A stretch of DNA of 14,779 bases. It comes from Acidobacteriaceae bacterium (lineage in GTDB: Bacteria > Acidobacteriota > Terriglobia > Terriglobales > Acidobacteriaceae). Every line of letters starts with the position of its first letter. The stretch's first letter is position 1. Where the stretch lies: the NCBI GenBank assembly GCA_003135495.1, contig PLBX01000299.1, positions 1,440 to 16,218 of the forward strand, written 5' to 3'. This document shows, piece by piece, positions 5,411 through 14,779 of this stretch. Under the pieces are notes generated by a model, which worked only from the letters and a program-made list of their open reading frames with translations, made no database searches and was not told the DNA's origin. The position numbers were made by a program, and so were the translations under genes.

Positions 5411-6193
5411 CTAGCGCGCTGATTTGAAGATTGCGAAGACGGCGCCTTGTGGGTCGGCGATAACCGAAAAGCGCCCGACGCCTTCCATTGTCATGGGAGC
5501 GAGATGGAGTTTCGCTCCCATCTTTTTTGCTTTATTCGCGGATGCATCCACATCATCGACTTGAAAATACGCTAGCCAGTGGGCCGGAGTTCCCGGCTGG
5601 CGATGAGCGACGGGGGGAATACCCCCGATGTGTTGCTCGCCATTTTTTATATGGAGATAGCCGGAAGGATCTTGGGGAGCGGCGAAGGCCTGCCATCCGA
5701 AAAGGCCAGAGTAGAACTCGGCCGCGCGCTTTGGATCGGGCGTGCTTAGATCGGCCCAGCAGAGCGTCCCGTTTACTTGCGAGACTCCTATGCCGGCATT
5801 CTTGTTTGCCTGCCACACACAGAAGATGGCGCCGGTGGGATCCTGGATGATGGCCATGCGGCCGGCGTCCATAACATCAAAGGCTGCTGTAAGAGCTTTG
5901 CCGCCCAGTTGCTTCGCCTTGGTTACTGTATCGTCGGCATTCTTTACCGCGATGTAAATCATCCAGTACGGGGGCATGCCTTGCGAACGCTCTTCGGGAC
6001 GGAGAGTGCATCCGGCGGCGGCTTCGCGGTCTTGGAGTTTGAATTCAGTGTAAAAATCGTTCGGACCCATCGGGTTGTCGTGAGCTGCCCATCCAAAGAG
6101 AGAGGCGTAGAAACTTTTCGCGGCGTTCTGGTCGGTCGTGTGGAGTTCGATCCAGCAGAAGTTTCCGGCAGGGTGCTTGTCGATGTTTGTCAT
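5411..6193 (-). CDS. Tandem two-domain VOC (glyoxalase/bleomycin-resistance) superfamily protein
   Basis: This 260-residue soluble protein has two tandem VOC modules. The first (about 8-130) opens with CWIELHTTD, then AKSFYASLFGW ending at W35, and closes with IIQDPTGAIFCVWQ (115-128). The second (about 140-258) repeats the plan with CWADLSTPD, AAEFYSGLFGW ending at W167, and VIADPQGAVFAIFK (244-257). It resembles the two-domain VOC proteins often annotated as glyoxalase-like or hydroxylase. The canonical glyoxalase I metal-ligand set (His/Glu on the edge strands) is not obvious, so metal-dependent lyase activity should not be assumed. Substrate and reaction are unknown. It appears monocistronic. 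No Shine-Dalgarno sequence precedes ATG 6193. A weak TAAACT (6203-6208) lies nine bases upstream, so a leaderless message is conceivable. The assignment to VOC is firm; the function is not. Confidence 0.9.
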   Translation of the reverse strand: MTNIDKHPAGNFCWIELHTTDQNAAKSFYASLFGWAAHDNPMGPNDFYTEFKLQDREAAAGCTLRPEERSQGMPPYWMIYIAVKNADDTVTKAKQLGGKALTAAFDVMDAGRMAIIQDPTGAIFCVWQANKNAGIGVSQVNGTLCWADLSTPDPKRAAEFYSGLFGWQAFAAPQDPSGYLHIKNGEQHIGGIPPVAHRQPGTPAHWLAYFQVDDVDASANKAKKMGAKLHLAPMTMEGVGRFSVIADPQGAVFAIFKSAR

Positions 6194-6282
6194 AGCGGAA
6201 GGAGTTTACACCAAATAGGGATGATCGGTTATCTGAGGACGAGTGCTTTGCGCCAGGCGCTTGGTTACGTGGCGACCAAGAC

Positions 6283-6320
6283 CTTTACCACAGAGGGCAC
6301 GGGGCACAGGGGAACACAAA
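6283..6320. repeat. Degenerate intergenic element with ACCACAGAGGGCACGGGG core
   Basis: The stretch CTTTACCACAGAGGGCACGG (6283-6302), continuing into an A/G-rich tail ending AACACAAAG, resembles a purine-rich element I associate with acidobacterial intergenic DNA. A second, more diverged relative begins CTTTACCACTAAGGACACTA at 7658-7677. The shared head CTTTACCAC plus a GG-CAC core suggests common ancestry, but the two are too short to prove it. No coding potential is evident. Confidence 0.35.
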
Positions 6321-6383
6321 GAAACCTCACGGGGTAAGCGCCATGCGCATGATTGCGATTCGAGTTTTGTGATGACGCACGCT

Positions 6384-6409
6384 CGCGGACAGGAGTGTCC
6401 GCGCCACAC
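6384..6409. repeat. Short GC-rich palindromic intergenic element (copy 2)
   Basis: CGCGGACA (6384-6391) and TGTCCGCG (6396-6403) form a perfect 8-bp stem with a GGAG loop, followed by CCACAC. It shares form and trailing bases with the palindrome at 5345-5371. Translated on the - strand it yields WRGHSCPR, which I recognise from spurious ORFs predicted in acidobacterial genomes. It lies immediately downstream of the aminotransferase stop and may influence transcript 3' ends, though no T-tract follows. Confidence 0.6.
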
Positions 6410-6411
6410 GG

Positions 6412-7602
6412 TCAGAGGTTTTTTCGCGACCAGTCTTCGATTCTGGCCAGGGCTTTGTTGAGATTTTCAAGTGAGTTGGCCACGCTGAATCTTAGATAAC
6501 CTTCTCCGTAGGCTCCGAAGGCGGTGCCGGATAGGCAGGCTACTCCGGCTTGTTCCAACAGCGCGTCAGCCAATTTTTTGGAGGCCCAGCCGGTTTTCGT
6601 GATGTTGGGGAATGCATAAAAAGCGCCTTTGGGTACGCGGCAGGAGAAGCTTTTAATTTTGTTAAGGCCTGCTACGAAGACATCGCGACGGCGTTTGAAT
6701 TCGGCGCTCATTTTGTCGACCGAAGATTGATCGCCGCGGAGCGCTTCGATCCCGGCCATCTGCGTAAAGCTAGCGGTGCACGACGTTGCGTTGGTTACGA
6801 GGCGAGTAATTTGCGCGGCGAGATCGGGACGCATTACGCCGTAACCCATGCGCCACCCGGTCATGGCGTAGGTTTTGGAGAAGCCGTCGAGGAGGATGGT
6901 GCGCTCTTTAAAGCCGGGGACGCTCATGATGGAGAAGTGGTCGCCGTCATAGATCAGGCGGCTATAAATTTCGTCGGAGAGAATAAGGATGTTGCGATCG
7001 CCAATTGCCTCGGCAATTTCCAGAATGTCTTTCTTGGTCAGGACCCCGCCGGTCGGATTGTGCGGCGAGTTCAGGATGATTAGCTTGGTGCGGTCGGTAA
7101 TCAGCGAGGCCAATTCTTTGGTATCTACCGAGAAATCGCGATCTTCGCGCAAGGGGATTGGAATCGCTTTGCCGAGCGAATAGTCGATCATCGACTCGTA
7201 AATCGGAAAACCAGGATTCGGGTAGATAACTTCATCTCCCTCATCAATTAGCGCCATCATAGTAAAGAAAATAATAGGCTTGCCGCCGGGCACGACGACC
7301 ACCTCGTCGCTCGATACTGGGACATTGCGGGTGCGGCTTACGTAGTCGGCGATGGTCTGGCGCAGGTCGGGAAGCCCGGCGGCTGGGCCGTAGTGAGTCC
7401 AGCCTTTTTGCAGGGCGTTGACGCCGGCCTCGATTACGTTCGTGGGCGTGTCGAAATCGGGCTCGCCTATCTCAAGGTGGATGATTTCTTTGCCTTGCTT
7501 CTCGAGGGCTCGGGCCCGGTTCAGGACTTCGAACGCGGTTTCGGTGCCTAGGCGCGACATCCGGCTGGATAGGCGCAATTCATATTGGGTCATAGTTGGC
7601 AT
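6412..7602 (-). CDS. PLP-dependent class I/II aminotransferase (aspartate aminotransferase-like)
   Basis: This is a fold-type I aminotransferase of 396 residues from the start chosen here, close to the usual 385-400 for the AspC/AAT class I family; it would move an amino group between an amino acid and a 2-oxo acid in the cytoplasm. Visible signatures are GEPDFDTP (46-53), PGGKPIIFF, NSPHNPTGG with Asn182, DEIY with Asp210 and Tyr213 (PLP pyridine and 3'-OH contacts), DGFSKTYAMTGWRMGY with the Schiff-base Lys243 and Arg251, and YLRFSVAN with the substrate-carboxylate Arg371. Amino-acid specificity cannot be read safely; Asp, Ala or an aromatic substrate are all possible. Start choice: an in-frame TTG at 7653 and ATG at 7647 lie upstream of the predicted transcription start, so ATG 7602 (or ATG 7593) is favoured. 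Neither has a Shine-Dalgarno sequence, which fits a near-leaderless mRNA. Confidence 0.93.
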   Translation of the reverse strand: MPTMTQYELRLSSRMSRLGTETAFEVLNRARALEKQGKEIIHLEIGEPDFDTPTNVIEAGVNALQKGWTHYGPAAGLPDLRQTIADYVSRTRNVPVSSDEVVVVPGGKPIIFFTMMALIDEGDEVIYPNPGFPIYESMIDYSLGKAIPIPLREDRDFSVDTKELASLITDRTKLIILNSPHNPTGGVLTKKDILEIAEAIGDRNILILSDEIYSRLIYDGDHFSIMSVPGFKERTILLDGFSKTYAMTGWRMGYGVMRPDLAAQITRLVTNATSCTASFTQMAGIEALRGDQSSVDKMSAEFKRRRDVFVAGLNKIKSFSCRVPKGAFYAFPNITKTGWASKKLADALLEQAGVACLSGTAFGAYGEGYLRFSVANSLENLNKALARIEDWSRKNL

Positions 7603-7614
7603 AGCGGTAGATAA

Positions 7615-7643
7615 ATTATATCGCTTTGGATGCTTTGTTTGAA
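7615..7643 (-). promoter_or_regulatory. Predicted sigma-70 promoter of the aminotransferase gene
   Basis: On the - strand a perfect TATAAT (7620-7615) is spaced 17 bases from TTCAAA (7643-7638), a 4/6 match to TTGACA. The inferred transcription start is about 7608, giving a leader of only about 6 bases to ATG 7602 or 15 to ATG 7593. Confidence 0.6.
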
Positions 7644-7779
7644 ACATCGGCAAAGGGCTTTACCACTAAGGACACTAGGGTTCACGACGGAAATCGGTTT
7701 GCTGTTACTTGTAGGTGGCATAGGGCACAGCGGGAAACTCTGATTCTTAGCTCCGCAATCTAACCTCTCACCTCTGCAA

Positions 7780-8757
7780 TTACTCTGAGATGGTGCTTTC
7801 TTCGCTTTGAGCACGGAGCACGCGATCTACGGAGTATGGGGCGCGCTGCGTGGGTTCGTGAAAGTGACGTACTTGCATTTCACCCAGAAGACCTACGGCT
7901 AGCATGTTCAGCCCGGCCAGCAGCAGCACGGCGGAGAAGATCATCAAGGGGCCGTGCTGGTACATGACATCGGCCTGGTGAAGGAGTTTTTCAAAAATTA
8001 GCCACAGCGAGATACCACAGCCTGCCATGATGCTAAACATTCCTACAGTGCCGAAGAAGTGCAGAGGACGCGAGAGATATTTGAGCAGGAAGCGAATGGT
8101 GATCAGGTCGAAGAATACGCGGAAAGTGCGCGAGATTCCGTAATGCGATGCGCCGCGTTCGCGGTTGATATTCTTGATGGGAACTTCGATGATCGATGCG
8201 CCATACCACGACGCCAGCGCGGGTATGAAGCGGTGGAGTTCACCGTAAAGCGGGACTTGGCCGAGGATTTCGCGGCGATAGGCTTTGAAGGTCGTGCCGA
8301 AATCATGAATCTCAACTCCGCTCAATTTGGCCATCAGCCAGTTGGCGCAGCGCGAGGGAAAGCGGCGAAGCCAGAAATTGTCGACGCGGGTCTTACGCCA
8401 GCCACTGACTATGTCGTAGCCTTCCGCAATTTTTTCGAGGAATAGAGGGATGTCGCCGGGGTCGTGCTGCAAATCGCCATCCATGGCGATGATGTATTCG
8501 CCGCGGGCGTGATCGAATCCGGCAGCGAGGCCGGCCGTTTGTCCGAAGTTGCGGCGCAGTTTTACGACGGTGACACGGCTGTCGACGGCTGCGATTTCGC
8601 GCAGCAAACCGAACGTGCCGTCGATTGAACCATCATCGACCAGTACCATCTCGAAGGTCTCGCCGCTCGCCTCCATCACAGACTTGAGCCGGGCGTACAG
8701 GTCGGTGACGTTCTCCTGCTCGTTGTGCAGGGGCACTACAATTGAATACTTGAGCAC
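7780..8757 (-). CDS. Family 2 glycosyltransferase, polyprenyl-phosphate type (GtrB/DPM1/ArnC-like)
   Basis: This 325-residue membrane-anchored GT2 would transfer a sugar from a nucleotide donor to a polyprenyl (undecaprenyl) phosphate on the cytoplasmic face, giving a lipid-linked sugar for envelope glycan or protein modification. The GT-A domain (1-225) shows YSIVVPLHNEQENV (4-17), VLVDDGSIDGT (38-48) with D41-D42, the metal-binding DGD at 93-95 in AMDGDLQHDP, and DFGTTFKAYRREI (152-164). Two C-terminal transmembrane helices follow (about 232-256 and 269-293), as in GtrB-type enzymes, with a short charged tail. The start is GTG 8757: the coding frame begins just after a TATAAT and there is no Shine-Dalgarno sequence, consistent with leaderless initiation. 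The sugar is unknown. It lies 185 bases beyond the trehalose cluster with its own promoter, so membership in that operon is doubtful. Confidence 0.92.
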   Translation of the reverse strand: MLKYSIVVPLHNEQENVTDLYARLKSVMEASGETFEMVLVDDGSIDGTFGLLREIAAVDSRVTVVKLRRNFGQTAGLAAGFDHARGEYIIAMDGDLQHDPGDIPLFLEKIAEGYDIVSGWRKTRVDNFWLRRFPSRCANWLMAKLSGVEIHDFGTTFKAYRREILGQVPLYGELHRFIPALASWYGASIIEVPIKNINRERGASHYGISRTFRVFFDLITIRFLLKYLSRPLHFFGTVGMFSIMAGCGISLWLIFEKLLHQADVMYQHGPLMIFSAVLLLAGLNMLAVGLLGEMQVRHFHEPTQRAPYSVDRVLRAQSEESTISE

Positions 8758-8942: not shown

Positions 8943-10364
8943 TTAGACAGTCCGTTCTCCCATGAGAATGCGGAGTAAGAGCAGCCAGCGACGGACATTT
9001 GTGGTCATGAGGAAGCTTTCTTTAACGTGCTCTCGACCGTTGCGGCCTAATTGCGCGGCGAACTCGGGATGCGTGAGCAAATAGCGGATTTGATAGGCGC
9101 AGCCTTCCACGGAATGGACCAGCGCGCCGGTCAACTTATGAATGACCTGGTTCGGAATGCCGCCTACAGCGCCGGCTATGGTCGGCTTCCCTTTCCAAAG
9201 CGCTTCGGTCACGGTCAGGCCAAAACCTTCCTTGATCGACTTCTGGATGACGATGGTGGACGCCCGCTGCAGCGCATTGATTTGAAGGGCGCACCATGGC
9301 GGCAAGTCGAGAATGATTACATCAGGATCGTTGCCTACGACCTCTTTGACCTCCTTTAACACGAGCGCGCCTTCGGGATCATCGCTGGCTCCGCCGCCGG
9401 CCAGGACGAGTTGGCAGTCGACATATTTCCGCGCCAGCTTGTAGGCCTGCACGACGCCAACCGGATCTTTCAAGCGATCGAAACGGGACACCTGAGTGAT
9501 GATGGGACGCGAGCGGTCGATGCCGAATTCATCGCAGATCTGCTGCACGTAACTATCGTCGAGTTCTTTGTTCTTCTCTGACAGAGGATCGATGCAGGGA
9601 TAAAACAAGTATTGCGGGATGGGCAATTGCCGGGCGAATGATTGCGATGAAAAAATCGCGGCATCGAATTGATCGATGAAGGGACGCAGGAAGCCCCAGA
9701 CTTGAGGATTCGGATTCGACAAATCGATGTGGCAGCGCCATACCCAGCGTCCAGGAGAATCTTTCTTGGAACGAATTAGTCCTGCGGGCTGCGGATCGTG
9801 AATAACGACTACATCTTCTTGGAACTGCATGCGCTGCCGATTCTGTTCATTGTAGGCGAGGAAGATTTCCTGGGCCGCGCGATTGAGCTGGTACTCGGTA
9901 CCGTGCAGCGCGTTGTGGAAAGCCTTCGTCACTTCAAAGAAATCGTTGCCCCCGGTGATCACATCCCAGTGCGTGGTCACTTCCAGTTCGGCGAGCATGG
10001 GTACGAGACGATTCAGCATCTCGGCCACGCCACCACCAACGGCCGTGGAGTTGACCATCTTCAGCGTCTTTCCTTTGAGCGGGCGTGCTAGAAAACGCAG
10101 CTCGTTGATTTCGGCATCACCCACGATGGGACGGTAATCATCGAAATGAGGCGCGGGCACGGGTTCGGGAGGCGTCTCCCAGGTTCGCGGAGCCTTGCGG
10201 CGCTCGGGATAAGCGGTCGCTGGTTGGCTGACCTGCGACGGCTGTTTGGTTTCTGTTTCTGATGCAAGGGTGGAGATTGATTGCTGACTGGCAGCGTTTT
10301 GCGATTTCACGAGTTTTATTCCTTCTCTATTCGCTTCGTGTTTATCAGCTTGGTCTACGGTCAT
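8943..10364 (-). CDS. TreT-type trehalose glycosyltransferring synthase (GT4 family)
   Basis: This 473-residue GT-B enzyme strongly resembles archaeal and bacterial TreT, which condenses NDP-glucose with free glucose to make trehalose reversibly. Signatures in order: VNSTAVGGGVAEML (104-117), FFEVTKAFHNALHG (142-155), VIHDPQPAGLI (187-197), WRCHIDLSNPN (209-219), ITQVSRFDRLKDP (289-301), and the GT4 donor motif EGFGLTVTEALWKGKP (379-394) with the E379/E387 pair. The first ~95 residues are Gln/Ser/Pro-rich, look disordered and are absent from archaeal TreT as I recall it. Start: ATG 10364 has only a distant AGGA. GTG 10310 (Val19) has AGAAGGA (10326-10320) at a good 9-base spacing and may be the true start, giving 455 residues. 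It is the last gene of otsA-otsB-DUF5752-treT. TreT activity is inferred from motifs; a trehalose phosphorylase-like or other glucosyltransfer reaction is the main alternative. Confidence 0.88.
   Translation of the reverse strand: MTVDQADKHEANREGIKLVKSQNAASQQSISTLASETETKQPSQVSQPATAYPERRKAPRTWETPPEPVPAPHFDDYRPIVGDAEINELRFLARPLKGKTLKMVNSTAVGGGVAEMLNRLVPMLAELEVTTHWDVITGGNDFFEVTKAFHNALHGTEYQLNRAAQEIFLAYNEQNRQRMQFQEDVVVIHDPQPAGLIRSKKDSPGRWVWRCHIDLSNPNPQVWGFLRPFIDQFDAAIFSSQSFARQLPIPQYLFYPCIDPLSEKNKELDDSYVQQICDEFGIDRSRPIITQVSRFDRLKDPVGVVQAYKLARKYVDCQLVLAGGGASDDPEGALVLKEVKEVVGNDPDVIILDLPPWCALQINALQRASTIVIQKSIKEGFGLTVTEALWKGKPTIAGAVGGIPNQVIHKLTGALVHSVEGCAYQIRYLLTHPEFAAQLGRNGREHVKESFLMTTNVRRWLLLLRILMGERTV
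10320..10326 (-). promoter_or_regulatory. Strong Shine-Dalgarno inside the annotated 5' end of the TreT-like gene
   Basis: AGAAGGA (10326-10320, - strand) lies nine bases upstream of GTG 10310, in frame at codon 19. The upstream ATG 10364 has only an AGGA about 13 bases away. This supports initiation at 10310, though both start regions encode non-conserved sequence. Confidence 0.5.
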
Positions 10365-10424: not shown

Positions 10425-11135
10425 TTACGTCAGCGATCGTTCTACGACGCGAACAATTTGGCGACGCACGTCTTCGAGGGTCGCAGTGTAGATATCTATC
10501 CGGTTGAGCGCCCGGGCAGTGTCGGTAAGTCCGACGTCTTCATGCAGCCACTGCGAAAAATCGTTGGACATGAGCTTGATGCGCAGACGCGCCTCGATGA
10601 AATGATGGTGGATGGAGTGGACGCTAGCTTCTCGCAGGCCTTTTACAAACTCCTGCATGCTGCCTGCAACCGTATCGGTGGGCAGCACTACGATGTCGGC
10701 GGCGCAGAAGTAGAAAGTCTCTTCGGCAATCTTGCTGGCGTCGGCATGATGGCGTTTGAGATGGTTTGCGAGTATTTCGATAAAGCGTTCGCGCAGGTCG
10801 CTGAGAGAGGTGAACTCGCGCACGTCCACGCTGGCAAGCTGTTCGGCCAGGCCGGGCTGATTACAGGCGGCCAAAGCCCAGTGCGCGAAATCGTTGGAGA
10901 ATCCCTCCCGAATGAAGTGGTGCTCCTGCAGGGTGCGGAAGGTGTGCTGAAAGATGGAATCCTCGGGGCAAGCGCGCAAACAATCCAGCAACTCGGCAAG
11001 CGTGTTCGCCTTAAGCGTGGTGATGCGCAGGAGGTGGGCCGAGGTATTGAAGTAAAAGGCTTTGACTGCTTGATGCCGAGGCGCGGTCTGGGTTCCGGTT
11101 GTGCTCTCAGTTGTAGTTGTAGTTGTCGTTGTCAT
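10425..11135 (-). CDS. DUF5752 family protein, two tandem homologous units
   Basis: This 236-residue soluble protein has no known biochemical function. I recognise the DUF5752 pattern. It consists of a Thr-rich leader (residues 2-9 all Thr, from a hexanucleotide repeat) and two copies of one unit. Unit 1 (about 27-126) starts at FYF27-29, then has SIFQH (60-64), SNDFAHW (80-86) and FTSLSDLRERFIEIL (108-122). Unit 2 (about 141-235) starts at FYF141-143, then has SIHHH (174-178), SNDFSQW (190-196) and YTATLEDVRRQIVRVV (216-231). Both look largely helical. There is no signal peptide, membrane helix or obvious catalytic motif. It lies 30 bases after otsB and 60 before the TreT-like gene, so it is very probably co-transcribed. 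A regulatory, scaffolding or glycan-binding role beside the two trehalose synthases is inference only. AGGGA (11151-11147) is a plausible but distant ribosome-binding site. Confidence 0.85.
   Translation of the reverse strand: MTTTTTTTTESTTGTQTAPRHQAVKAFYFNTSAHLLRITTLKANTLAELLDCLRACPEDSIFQHTFRTLQEHHFIREGFSNDFAHWALAACNQPGLAEQLASVDVREFTSLSDLRERFIEILANHLKRHHADASKIAEETFYFCAADIVVLPTDTVAGSMQEFVKGLREASVHSIHHHFIEARLRIKLMSNDFSQWLHEDVGLTDTARALNRIDIYTATLEDVRRQIVRVVERSLT
11109..11132 (-). repeat. Hexanucleotide microsatellite encoding a poly-Thr leader
   Basis: Four consecutive six-base units (ACAACG once, then ACAACT three times on the - strand) directly follow the ATG of the DUF5752 gene and encode Thr2-Thr9. 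Unit gain or loss would change length by two residues without a frameshift. Confidence 0.7.
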
Positions 11136-11138
11136 CTT

Positions 11139-11170
11139 TTATCTATTCCCTATCGTTATCTATCCCTATC
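11139..11170. repeat. Imperfect 16-17 bp direct repeat between otsB and the DUF5752 gene
   Basis: TTATCTATTCCCTATCG (11139-11155) is followed immediately by TTATCTATCCCTATCT (11156-11171), differing mainly by one inserted T. It covers the 30-base intergenic gap and the otsB stop codon. On the mRNA it gives repeated GATAGGGA/GATAG purine motifs, one of which supplies the AGGGA ribosome-binding site. Confidence 0.55.
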
Positions 11171-12011
11171 TAACGCCCTTATCCATTGTGTGCACTGTCT
11201 TGGCGGAATTTCGTCGTGACGCGCTGTGTTCGACACAAGTTTTCAGCCACAGACCAAGAAAATCGAGTAGCTCGTCGGGAGGTTTCAGCCAGAATCGAGC
11301 TGCCGTCTCCCGCCAAGTTGGGCGTACCAGCACGCTAATGCCGCGACCCTCCATGGCGAGGAAAGCTGCTTCGTCGGTAGTATCGTCGCCGAGGTAAGCC
11401 ACCGGGACGGCGGGACTGATTTCACTCAAGAAGGTGCGAACGGCTTCGCCTTTGTCGGCTTCAGAGGCGCGAACCTCGACTCCTCCATCAAATTCGAGCA
11501 GGTCGAGGCCGCTTTGTTCGGCAATGGGTCCCCAGCCAAGCATGACGCGGGCGCGCAGATCTTTAGCGTCTTTTTCACTCATTCCGCGCCAGTGGACTGC
11601 GATGCTGCCGGCCTTGAATTCTGCGCTATGCCGAAGTTGCTGGTGGCCGAGCCAGCGATCCGCATCCGATAAAGCATCGAGCGTTCGGTCATCGAGGCTT
11701 GGCATTTCCATGCTGCCGTCAGTTTTCATGCGTTGCAATCCGTGGATTCCCCAAACCTCGGGCCTCGGGTGAATATTTAAAAAGGGGAGAACATCGGAGG
11801 CATCGCGTCCGGAGACGACTACGACCCTGGTGCGGCAGTCTCGTACGATTTCCTGCAGGACGAGCGCTACGCCGGGATAAGGGAACGCCTGATCGCGCTG
11901 CGTGCGAAAGGGAGCGAGGGTTCCATCGTAATCGAGCAGAAGTACAGCCTCAGTTGAGGCGGCGACAGTTTGTAGAAATGGACTAAGTTCAGCTTGAACT
12001 TCTGGCCTCAA
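11166..12011 (-). CDS. otsB: Trehalose-6-phosphate phosphatase
   Basis: This HAD-superfamily phosphatase (281 residues; family about 250-280) would dephosphorylate trehalose-6-phosphate to trehalose in the cytoplasm, completing the OtsA/OtsB route. All HAD motifs are present: LLLDYDGTLAPF (24-35) with nucleophile D27 and acid/base D29, VVVVSGRD (63-70), the OtsB signature WGIHGLQ (87-93), the motif III Lys in ADKGEAV (K187), and YLGDDTTDEAAF (206-217) with D209-D210. The C-terminal ~25 residues are unconserved. The start is TTG 12011: AGAAAGGA (12028-12021) ends nine bases before it, and the nearby ATG at about 12030 is out of frame and quickly stopped. It lies 59 bases after otsA, which makes its substrate. 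A TTG start may lower its synthesis relative to otsA. Confidence 0.95.
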   Translation of the reverse strand: MRPEVQAELSPFLQTVAASTEAVLLLDYDGTLAPFRTQRDQAFPYPGVALVLQEIVRDCRTRVVVVSGRDASDVLPFLNIHPRPEVWGIHGLQRMKTDGSMEMPSLDDRTLDALSDADRWLGHQQLRHSAEFKAGSIAVHWRGMSEKDAKDLRARVMLGWGPIAEQSGLDLLEFDGGVEVRASEADKGEAVRTFLSEISPAVPVAYLGDDTTDEAAFLAMEGRGISVLVRPTWRETAARFWLKPPDELLDFLGLWLKTCVEHSASRRNSAKTVHTMDKGVR

Positions 12012-12070: not shown

Positions 12071-14404
12071 TCAAGCAGCGGACACACTGGCACGAAATCT
12101 TTCCTGGCGGTCTTCGGGCTCATCCAAACGTATGTCGCAAAGTTCAGTTATGAGATCGCCGGCCCAGCGATAGATGTTATGGTCTTTGATGTTCTGACGC
12201 ATGCGATGGACTCGTAACTGTTTTTCTTCTGGGTCCATTTCGAGAGCGGCGCGGATAGCGTCGGCAGTCTGATCGATGTCATAAGGGTTTACTAGCAGAG
12301 CATCGCGCAATTCGCGCGCGGCGCCAGTAAACTGACTCAGGATCAGCACACCTCGTTCATCCTTCCTCGCGGCGAGAAATTCCTTGGCTACCAGATTCAT
12401 GCCGTCGTGCAGCGATGTAACCAGGCAAAGGTCGGCGGCGCGATAGTAGGGTTCGATCTCTTTGTGGCTGTGCTGCCGCTTGAGAAAGACGATGGGCTTC
12501 CAATTTCCGTTCTGGAAGCGCCAGTTGATGCGCTCTGTCTCTGCCTCAACTTCGGCGAGCAAGTCGTGGTAGCGCTTAATGTGAGTACGGCTCGGCGCTC
12601 CAATCTGAATGAACGTGAACTTCCCCTGATAGCTGGGATATTTCTCGAGGAAGCGCTCGATAGCGAGGAAGCGTTCAAGAATTCCTTTTGTGTAGTCGAC
12701 GCGATCGACGCCGATGCCCATATAGGTGGCTTCCACCCCCAGGCTCCGCAGGAGAGACGAACGTTTCTGGTAGCTGAAGCTGTCACTAATTGTGAGGGTC
12801 TTGCTTGTTCCATCTTTCGAATTCGCTTCCGAACTCTCTTCGACGTCGTCTCCCGTGAGGGCGACGCTGATGGGAAATGGACGAACCAAAGTGCGGTGTT
12901 CCTGCCGCAGCACGGAGAAATGCTCCCAATCGACTCGCGATTCCAGAACACGATCCACCGTCTGCAAAAAGTTATTGCAGTGCGATTGAATATGAAATCC
13001 GATCAGGTCAGCGCCGAGCAGACCATCGACCAACTGACGCTGCCACGGGCAAATCCCGAAAGCTTCTGGATTCGGCCATGGGATATGCCAGAAAATCGCA
13101 ATGCGGGCGTCAGGACGCTTTTCTTTTATCAGGCGTGGCAATAAAGCGAAGTGGTAATCCTGAACTAAAACCACAGGCTTTTCTACGCCCGCAATTTCTT
13201 CGAGAACAGCTTCGGTAAACTTGCGATTCACATCCTGATACGCCTGCCAGTCATCGGCGCGGAAGAGAGGCCGCGTGTGCGCGATGTGGCAAAGAGGCCA
13301 GAGGCCTTCATTTGCAAACCCGTAGTAGTACCCTTCTTCTTCCTCTTTCGTGAGCCACACGCGGCGCAAGGTATAGCGCGGATCTTCGGGTGGGACGCGA
13401 ATGCTGTCATGCGCGTCGACGACCTCGGCATCGGCGCTGCCGCTTCCGTGGGCGATCCAGGTTCCGTCGCAGGCATCAAGAACGGGTTCCAGAGCGGTAA
13501 CCAGACCGCTCGGCGGAACGACCACTTCAATCTCCTTACCGTTGCGCTGGTGCATGTAGGGCTCGCGATTCGAGACGACGAAGAGATGGCGATCGTTGAG
13601 ACGCGTGCGGAGCTGCACCGCGAGCCGATCCGCCGTCCACATGGATTGCGCTGTGTCCCGCAGGCGAGCTTCATTCTCAGCCGCATTGCGCGCATGAGTG
13701 AGGCTTTCGGCCATGGTGGCCACTTCGCGCGCCAGCGGGCGGAAGACATCGAGGTCCGGCGGTTCCTGCCGGAAAGATATCTTGCCGGTTCGCAGTGCGC
13801 GCATCCAAAGCGCGGCGCGGGCGATGGGTCCCGTAATGCTCCAGCGAACGATGAGCAGCGTAATGAAAACGATGAGGAAGACTTGGGCAAGCACCCGGAA
13901 AAACGTTTGTCGCCAGACCAGCAGGCTCTGGGCGCGGATATAACTCACGTCGTGGACGATGGCTAGGCCGCCGACCACCTCATCCTGACGGCGAACGGGA
14001 ACGGCTAAAATGTGGATCGGTATATCTCCCAGCCGGTCGTAGGAACTTTCCTCGCGATCTTCATTCACAGCCTTCGAGACCGCGGGAGGACTTACAGTTA
14101 GCGTTTTAGCAAGGGATGGACTTATGGCTACCAGACTGCCCTGCCGGTTATAGACAGCGACGCCCAGCAGGTTCTCCCGATTCCCAAAGCGCATCAGGAC
14201 TTTCTGCAGGTCCTTTGTGGAACCGTTATTCCAGGCTCGCTCAACGTTGCCGACAAGGCTTTCCCCTAGCATTTCGGCGCTTCCCTCAAGGTCGCTGCGC
14301 AGGGAGCGCTTCTTAGCTAGTACTTCATAGTAAGAAAACCCGGACGAAACTACAGTGATGCCCAGAATTAGAGAAACAATCAGTCGAATGCTCAACAATC
14401 GCAT
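12071..14404 (-). CDS. otsA: Trehalose-6-phosphate synthase fused to an N-terminal membrane sensor/HAMP module
   Basis: This GT20 enzyme (UDP-glucose + glucose-6-P to trehalose-6-P) sits behind a receptor-like module, 777 residues in all; plain OtsA is about 470. In order: TM1 (about 3-25), an extracytoplasmic Cache/PDC-like region (26-166; VAVYNRQGSLVA at 82-93 and GGLAIVHDVS at 145-154), TM2 (168-189), HAMP (188-241, Pro193 in SITGPIA), a charged helical linker, and GT20 (271-760). Every E. coli OtsA ligand residue I could place is kept: R280, W316, Y360, W369, D416, H440, R568, K573, D667, E675. A charged insert lies near 515-545. The start is ATG 14404, with AGAAGGG (14417-14411) six bases away and followed at once by TM1. 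An in-frame ATG at 14521 (816 residues) lies at or before the inferred transcription start. It heads the operon otsA-otsB-DUF5752-treT. Sensing is inferred; catalysis is well supported. Confidence 0.93.
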   Translation of the reverse strand: MRLLSIRLIVSLILGITVVSSGFSYYEVLAKKRSLRSDLEGSAEMLGESLVGNVERAWNNGSTKDLQKVLMRFGNRENLLGVAVYNRQGSLVAISPSLAKTLTVSPPAVSKAVNEDREESSYDRLGDIPIHILAVPVRRQDEVVGGLAIVHDVSYIRAQSLLVWRQTFFRVLAQVFLIVFITLLIVRWSITGPIARAALWMRALRTGKISFRQEPPDLDVFRPLAREVATMAESLTHARNAAENEARLRDTAQSMWTADRLAVQLRTRLNDRHLFVVSNREPYMHQRNGKEIEVVVPPSGLVTALEPVLDACDGTWIAHGSGSADAEVVDAHDSIRVPPEDPRYTLRRVWLTKEEEEGYYYGFANEGLWPLCHIAHTRPLFRADDWQAYQDVNRKFTEAVLEEIAGVEKPVVLVQDYHFALLPRLIKEKRPDARIAIFWHIPWPNPEAFGICPWQRQLVDGLLGADLIGFHIQSHCNNFLQTVDRVLESRVDWEHFSVLRQEHRTLVRPFPISVALTGDDVEESSEANSKDGTSKTLTISDSFSYQKRSSLLRSLGVEATYMGIGVDRVDYTKGILERFLAIERFLEKYPSYQGKFTFIQIGAPSRTHIKRYHDLLAEVEAETERINWRFQNGNWKPIVFLKRQHSHKEIEPYYRAADLCLVTSLHDGMNLVAKEFLAARKDERGVLILSQFTGAARELRDALLVNPYDIDQTADAIRAALEMDPEEKQLRVHRMRQNIKDHNIYRWAGDLITELCDIRLDEPEDRQERFRASVSAA

Positions 14405-14417: not shown

Positions 14418-14525
14418 ACCGCCGGAAGTTTGACGCTTTCGCGCTCTGACAGGTTGTTCGCTAAGTTCAAACGACTGTAGGAAATACCGTCGTCGTCATC
14501 CCAGTTTGTTCGCCCTGCCATATAA

Positions 14526-14531: not shown

Positions 14532-14779
14532 CGGCTCTGGCGGAACTCTGACGCAGCGGTCTTGGGACACCTCCAAAAAACCAGCCATTACAAGGTTTTC
14601 GACGAGGAATTTATTTTCACAGCTGTTCTCTTATGATTTTTCACAATCGATGAATGACTAAGTGCAAATGTCGTGCCAAGAGCGAGTGGTGGGATCAAGT
14701 CGTTGATACAGCGTTTTCACCGCCGTCTCCTGAAAGCCTAGGACAGTGCAAAGATGACGCCGTTCATGAAATTATTCCC

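Follow-up and report, generated by a model that had tools for sequence, protein, structure and literature searches.

Introduction

To our knowledge, known Cache-HAMP receptors drive kinases, cyclases, phosphodiesterases, phosphatases or chemotaxis. In the available part of a survey of HAMP and signalling-helix proteins, the outputs are histidine kinases, cyclases, phosphodiesterases, PP2C and AAA+ ATPases, and the surveyed proteins follow the same order as the protein described here, namely sensor, HAMP, helical coil and catalytic domain (PMC1592074). The words "trehalose" and "glycosyltransferase" are absent from the available portions of two texts on HAMP and S-helix signalling (PMC1592074, PMC5936718). 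Links between stress and the synthesis of trehalose 6-phosphate (T6P) have been described in other forms. In Thermoproteus tenax, a TPSP-GT complex with a mechanosensitive channel ties T6P synthesis, as here, to a glycosyltransferase encoded alongside it and to a membrane stress protein (PMC3634074). Regulation in that organism proceeds by complexing of separate proteins, and no fusion of the synthase to a receptor module is described in the available sections (PMC3634074). The OtsA of Arthrobacter has been proposed as an osmotic stress sensor that links stress to the cell response; according to the available sections, it acts by T6P-promoted self-assembly that steers morphology, and not by way of a transmembrane sensor (PMC5685639). 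An OtsA, not necessarily of the receptor form, is also up under high sugar in Granulicella sp. WH15 (PMC7074687).

Here we analyze a protein from a 14,779-nucleotide stretch of Acidobacteriaceae DNA (the window), in which a trehalose-6-phosphate synthase-like GT20 domain is joined to a transmembrane receptor module. A limited search of the open PMC literature returned no description of a sensor-OtsA, HAMP-OtsA, Cache-OtsA or antiporter-OtsA protein. As far as searched, the receptor-enzyme combination is new, while both parts are of known kinds.

Results

The window protein is encoded on the minus strand and is organized as listed below.

12071..14404, minus strand: receptor-like OtsA-type GT20 enzyme, 777 aa; single intact open reading frame with ATG at 14404 and stop at 12071
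14342..14398, minus strand: first transmembrane segment (TM1), residues 3-21, by hydropathy; part of a continuous helix 2-60 in the predicted structure
13910..14317, minus strand: Cache/PDC sensor domain in the periplasm, residues 30-165 by alignment with WalK, supported by sequence and model matches
13847..13903, minus strand: second transmembrane segment (TM2), residues 168-186, by hydropathy
13694..13840, minus strand: HAMP-derived helix pair (AS1-connector-AS2), residues 189-237, by profile match, spacing and model
13640..13693, minus strand: conserved helical coil, residues 238-255, consensus A-R-x-A-A-E-x-E-A-R-L-R
13598..13639, minus strand: W256 helix immediately N-terminal of GT20, residues 256-269, shared with several soluble relatives
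12140..13585, minus strand: GT20 catalytic domain, residues 274-755, by Pfam

A second in-frame ATG lies upstream at 14521; a start matching 14404 was located in nine of eleven close relatives. Hydropathy and the structural model agree on two transmembrane segments enclosing an extracytoplasmic sensor domain. The sequence-only reading had proposed the order TM, Cache/PDC-like region, TM, HAMP, linker and GT20. That anatomy is correct, and it is far commoner than the sequence alone could tell.

The N-terminus, including the HAMP part and coil, is homologous end to end with histidine-kinase sensor modules (profile search, E 7.7e-26). A Cache sensor, which the earlier reading had proposed to look for, was found as a WalK-type Cache/PDC domain both by sequence (window sensor against the WalK domain, E 1.2e-4) and by model, with the predicted structure matching the WalK receptor domain as well as a full-length WalK model over 265 residues. 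The profile sCache_3_2 was matched in 21 of 65 receptor N-termini. In WalK/YycG and related Cache-HAMP histidine kinases the output is HisKA-HATPase, whereas the output of the window protein is a GT20 sugar synthase.

Searches for the predicted HAMP domain gave mixed results. The region matches HAMP-bearing kinases at the profile level, and helices 154-206 and 222-255 of the predicted structure span it, in a stretch of low confidence in the full-length model (54-65 pLDDT for the ten-residue blocks of 201-250). Pfam HAMP (PF00672), however, did not match the window protein (E≤0.1), and it likewise matched none of 21 proteins in a first set and none of ten full-length proteins from several phyla. 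In a wider set it was matched in 15 of 65 N-termini (best E 4.8e-6), the window's own not among them. In canonical HAMP domains, AS2 typically begins with an E-x-G pattern. WalK/YycG-type kinases keep it, whereas the window protein has V and R in place of E and G, and its relatives have other residues there. Because this pattern is lost, we refer to the module as HAMP-derived.

Distances between the sensor module and the enzyme are nearly fixed. Among 96 nearer relatives (P0001, 64 loci and 31 database proteins), spacing is identical for P193-R205 in 96, P223-E227 in 96, E227-W256 in 95 and W256-S278 in 95, with the HAMP connector as the sole part of variable length. An alignment of 108 fused rows that takes in divergent lineages places 29 residues between the AS2 acid and W256 in 94 rows, 22 in five, 30 in one and 19-21 in eight; the acid is E in 95 rows and D in 13, and the tryptophan is W in all 108. 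The 22-residue spacing, exactly one heptad shorter, occurs in L082, L083, L085, L089 and L090. The eight shortest forms (L084, L086-L088, L091-L093 and L097) contain between one and four Gly/Pro within the final 14 residues of a coil that is probably broken. Rigid coupling is disfavoured in this eight-form lineage because the coil is short and contains Gly/Pro. Across 65 rows (64 loci and the window protein), the coil (residues 238-255) has a mean entropy of 1.30 bits, the periplasmic domain 2.39 bits and GT20 1.0-1.1 bits.

The GT20 part of the protein is complete. Its GT20 domain scores 396.8 bits against a Pfam cut-off of 32.5 (E 1.7e-118), and its best solved relative by sequence is the OtsA 5jij (E 3.4e-78), which we take to be from Mycobacterium thermoresistibile. 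Residues 280, 316, 360, 369, 416, 440, 568, 573, 606, 667, 670 and 675, together with others, are identical throughout an alignment of 20 fused forms with E. coli OtsA; presumably they correspond to the E. coli OtsA active site. The earlier statement that recognizable catalytic residues are kept is borne out by these shared positions. E. coli OtsA thus has the GT20 domain and the invariant residues in common with the window protein, but the alignment shows neither a membrane part nor a sensor part in it.

The architecture is widespread. With residues 1-270 as the query, a database search scored 7999 candidates, of which 3184 proteins reached E≤1e-3. All 120 matches listed of the 3184 contain PF00982, and 24 of them also contain PF17203. 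In the host phylum, GT20 is above the cut-off in 106 of 297 genomes. Forty of the phylum regions were inspected: 30 have the full receptor layout, one (G201) is without the Cache loop, one (G074) has a split gene, three are plain GT20 and five have GT20 behind at least ten TMs. In the split case (L016/L076), the receptor-form gene is distributed over two reading frames, where the N-terminal piece stops early and GT20 continues in the other frame. Translation confirms the full receptor layout in at least 28 of the 297 phylum genomes, the window's own included.

A scan of named genomes by two GT20-only motifs (SNREPY[MIE]H and NEGLWPLC) gave at least 584 confirmed stretches, of which the best 80 were analyzed. 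These were ranked on a 181-residue stretch that starts in the coil, and the ranking is biased towards receptor forms. The TM-loop-TM-GT20 layout is found in 76 of these best 80 of at least 584 loci; the four exceptions have an atypical second TM (L132), no loop (L159), one TM (L166) or a cut by the contig end (L160). Most record titles name Acidobacteria, and others name Elusimicrobia, Verrucomicrobia, Omnitrophota, Nitrospirae/Thermodesulfovibrionia, Methylomirabilota, Rokuibacteriota, Deltaproteobacteria, Edwardsbacteria, Bacteroidetes and Daviesbacteria. Single taxon labels may be binning errors because nearly all of the genomes are metagenome-assembled. The receptor form is also present in a culture-collection strain, Edaphobacter aggregans DSM 19364 (L130). 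Judging from these sequence records, the bacteria with the receptor-built GT20 enzyme live in soil and groundwater and belong to many phyla.

Downstream of the GT20 gene and on the same strand lie three further genes, with intervening gaps of 59, 30 and 60 bases.

11166..12011, minus strand: trehalose-phosphatase OtsB, probably in the same operon (exceeds the cut-offs of PF02358 and TIGR00685)
10425..11135, minus strand: DUF5752 protein, probably same operon (PF19027)
8943..10364, minus strand: TreT-like glycosyltransferase, probably same operon (PF21269)

Iterated profile searches identified an OtsB-like reading frame in 58 of the best 80 of at least 584 loci, a few on the other strand or kilobases off. 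It is directly downstream in 46 of the 76 loci from this set that have at least 900 bases downstream. An OtsB neighbour is likewise common to the OtsA proteins of E. coli and 5jij and the window protein. By the same searches, DUF5752 occurs in 36 and a TreT-like gene in 38 of the best 80 of at least 584 loci. Recurring across phyla and often with TreT and OtsB, DUF5752 is likely a trehalose-pathway protein. The trehalose genes of the window are followed at 5411-8757 (minus strand) by genes encoding a GT2, an aminotransferase of class I/II and a glyoxalase-like protein (the last named by eye), in the same order as in L104 and L105. Within 6 kb of the gene, clusters named by eye include a KefB-like antiporter in seven and a probable Na+/Ca2+-exchanger-like protein in seven of the best 80 loci, hinting at a context of ion or osmotic homeostasis.

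Several relatives are without the full module. A tree of 69 GT20 domains groups the receptor, antiporter-fused, single-TM and soluble forms in a single clade (100/100) that excludes E. coli OtsA and ten further GT20 rows of the phylum; on this tree the receptor label needs seven changes. A narrower tree had suggested a GT20 subfamily that is always membrane-bound; this was rejected, as soluble members fall inside the clade in the 69-domain tree. The soluble forms L185-L187 and L189 keep the W256 helix, so the invariance of W256 is no evidence for signalling. Most of the periplasmic loop is gone in the variants L015/L075 and L159, and L075 and L159 retain the TMs, the HAMP-derived part, the coil and GT20; P0130-P0132, at 627-633 aa, have a length that fits such variants. 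A 605-aa single-TM GT20 protein with the W helix and without Cache or coil is encoded on plasmid pAA02 of Aminobacter aminovorans (L183:3806-5623; P0136), where its gene adjoins those for an amylo-alpha-1,6-glucosidase and a GT4. In L098, L099, L101 and L102, a GT20 domain of this subfamily shares one open reading frame with a Na+/H+-exchanger domain (PF00999) that replaces Cache-HAMP. Two more forms are putatively antiporter-fused, L100 by 12 predicted TMs, with no PF00999 match, and L204 by ten predicted TMs. The existence of relatives without a Cache loop, with a single TM or in soluble form indicates that the GT20 fold can do without the sensor module.

Discussion

We propose that the window protein is a transmembrane, probably dimeric, one-component receptor with a trehalose-6-phosphate synthase as its output domain. 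The WalK-like periplasmic Cache/PDC domain would sense an extracytoplasmic cue, and the resulting change would be relayed from TM2 through the HAMP-derived helix pair and the fixed-length coil to GT20. There it would alter GT20 activity or subunit arrangement, such that T6P synthesis, and then OtsB, would follow the outside condition. Osmotic, desiccation or envelope stress are our guesses at the signal. That an outside signal gates GT20 catalysis directly seems to us somewhat probable. The earlier suggestion of a sensor that gates catalysis gains from the near-fixed spacing and the conserved coil, but loses from relatives with a short coil, no Cache loop, one TM or no membrane part. Evenly balanced, in our estimate, is the broader proposal of a receptor class with metabolic output. 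In such a class, an outside signal would mechanically gate compatible-solute precursor synthesis via the TM, HAMP-derived helices and coil, without second messenger, phosphotransfer or transcription, and the GT20 subfamily would have been membrane-coupled more than once, also by Na+/H+-exchanger fusion.

Tethering alone must be weighed because soluble, single-TM, sensor-less and short-coil relatives exist. The module could place T6P synthesis near partners, transporters or the envelope, with signal transmission lost. The lineage with the shortened Gly/Pro coil, the forms without a Cache loop, the single-TM Aminobacter form and the antiporter-fused forms are all in line with a tether, as the common denominator of these relatives is membrane attachment and not a sensor. 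Nonetheless, a tether needs neither a near-fixed HAMP-to-enzyme spacing, where five of 14 departures are exactly one heptad, nor a coil better conserved than the sensor, and TM-loop-TM is kept in 76 of the best 80 of at least 584 loci. On balance we regard a pure tether as unlikely, though a serious competitor. The receptor might also signal by assembly, changing not catalysis but oligomer state or the way in which OtsB, DUF5752 or the TreT-like protein docks. The frequent DUF5752 and TreT-like genes noted above fit such a scheme, as does the T. tenax TPSP, which, in the available sections of its description, needs a co-encoded glycosyltransferase for synthase activity (PMC3634074). Many receptor loci, however, are without TreT and DUF5752 nearby, and the activation in T. 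tenax, as described in those sections, relied on a fused TPS-TPP protein that is absent here (PMC3634074). We consider signalling by assembly very unlikely.

A different glycosyl phosphate, e.g. glucosylglycerol phosphate, could be made in place of T6P. The window protein scores 425 bits with the NCBIfam OtsA equivalog TIGR02400 (cut-off 564.85) and 316.8 bits with the NCBIfam glucosylglycerol-phosphate synthase equivalog (cut-off 569), thus missing both, and it belongs to another GT20 clade than E. coli OtsA. The OtsA score is nevertheless the higher and the closer to its cut-off, and both the OtsB and TreT linkage and the invariant residues in common with E. coli OtsA speak against another product, which we find highly improbable. 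Gene context favours T6P. The earlier description of the product as an osmoprotectant precursor is consistent with the OtsB linkage in most of the best 80 loci, and is tempered by the score below the NCBI OtsA cut-off. As for an assembly or annotation artefact that fused two genes, the draft host genome consists of 592 contigs, but the same single reading frame recurs in many independent assemblies. A gene join was rejected given the layout counts among both the best-ranked loci and the translated phylum genomes; its probability is close to nil.

If direct gating is true, a single protein lets cells couple an external cue directly to osmolyte synthesis, and the enzyme's product would directly report HAMP-type signalling. 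The GT20 domain occurs in nature with a receptor module, with an antiporter module and in soluble form, which offers a clean comparison of behaviour.

The earlier reading also described the sensing as transcription-free. Upstream of the gene lies a possible promoter element.

14663..14678, minus strand: perfect sigma-54-type promoter sequence TGGCACG-N4-TTGCA (possible), upstream of the gene and on its strand

The host genome encodes sigma-54, and the exact pattern has five matches in the 4.76 Mb genome, compared with one for a control pattern. Among 79 upstream regions (78 loci and the window), five sites score at least 14, versus 0.32 expected from mononucleotide shuffles and none on the reverse strand. 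Sigma-54 control as a conserved feature was rejected, since the site is absent upstream of the nearest relative (L104); for the same reason we treat it as a property of the window copy only. "Transcription-free" is therefore questionable for the window copy given this site, although post-translational sensing could coexist with transcriptional control.
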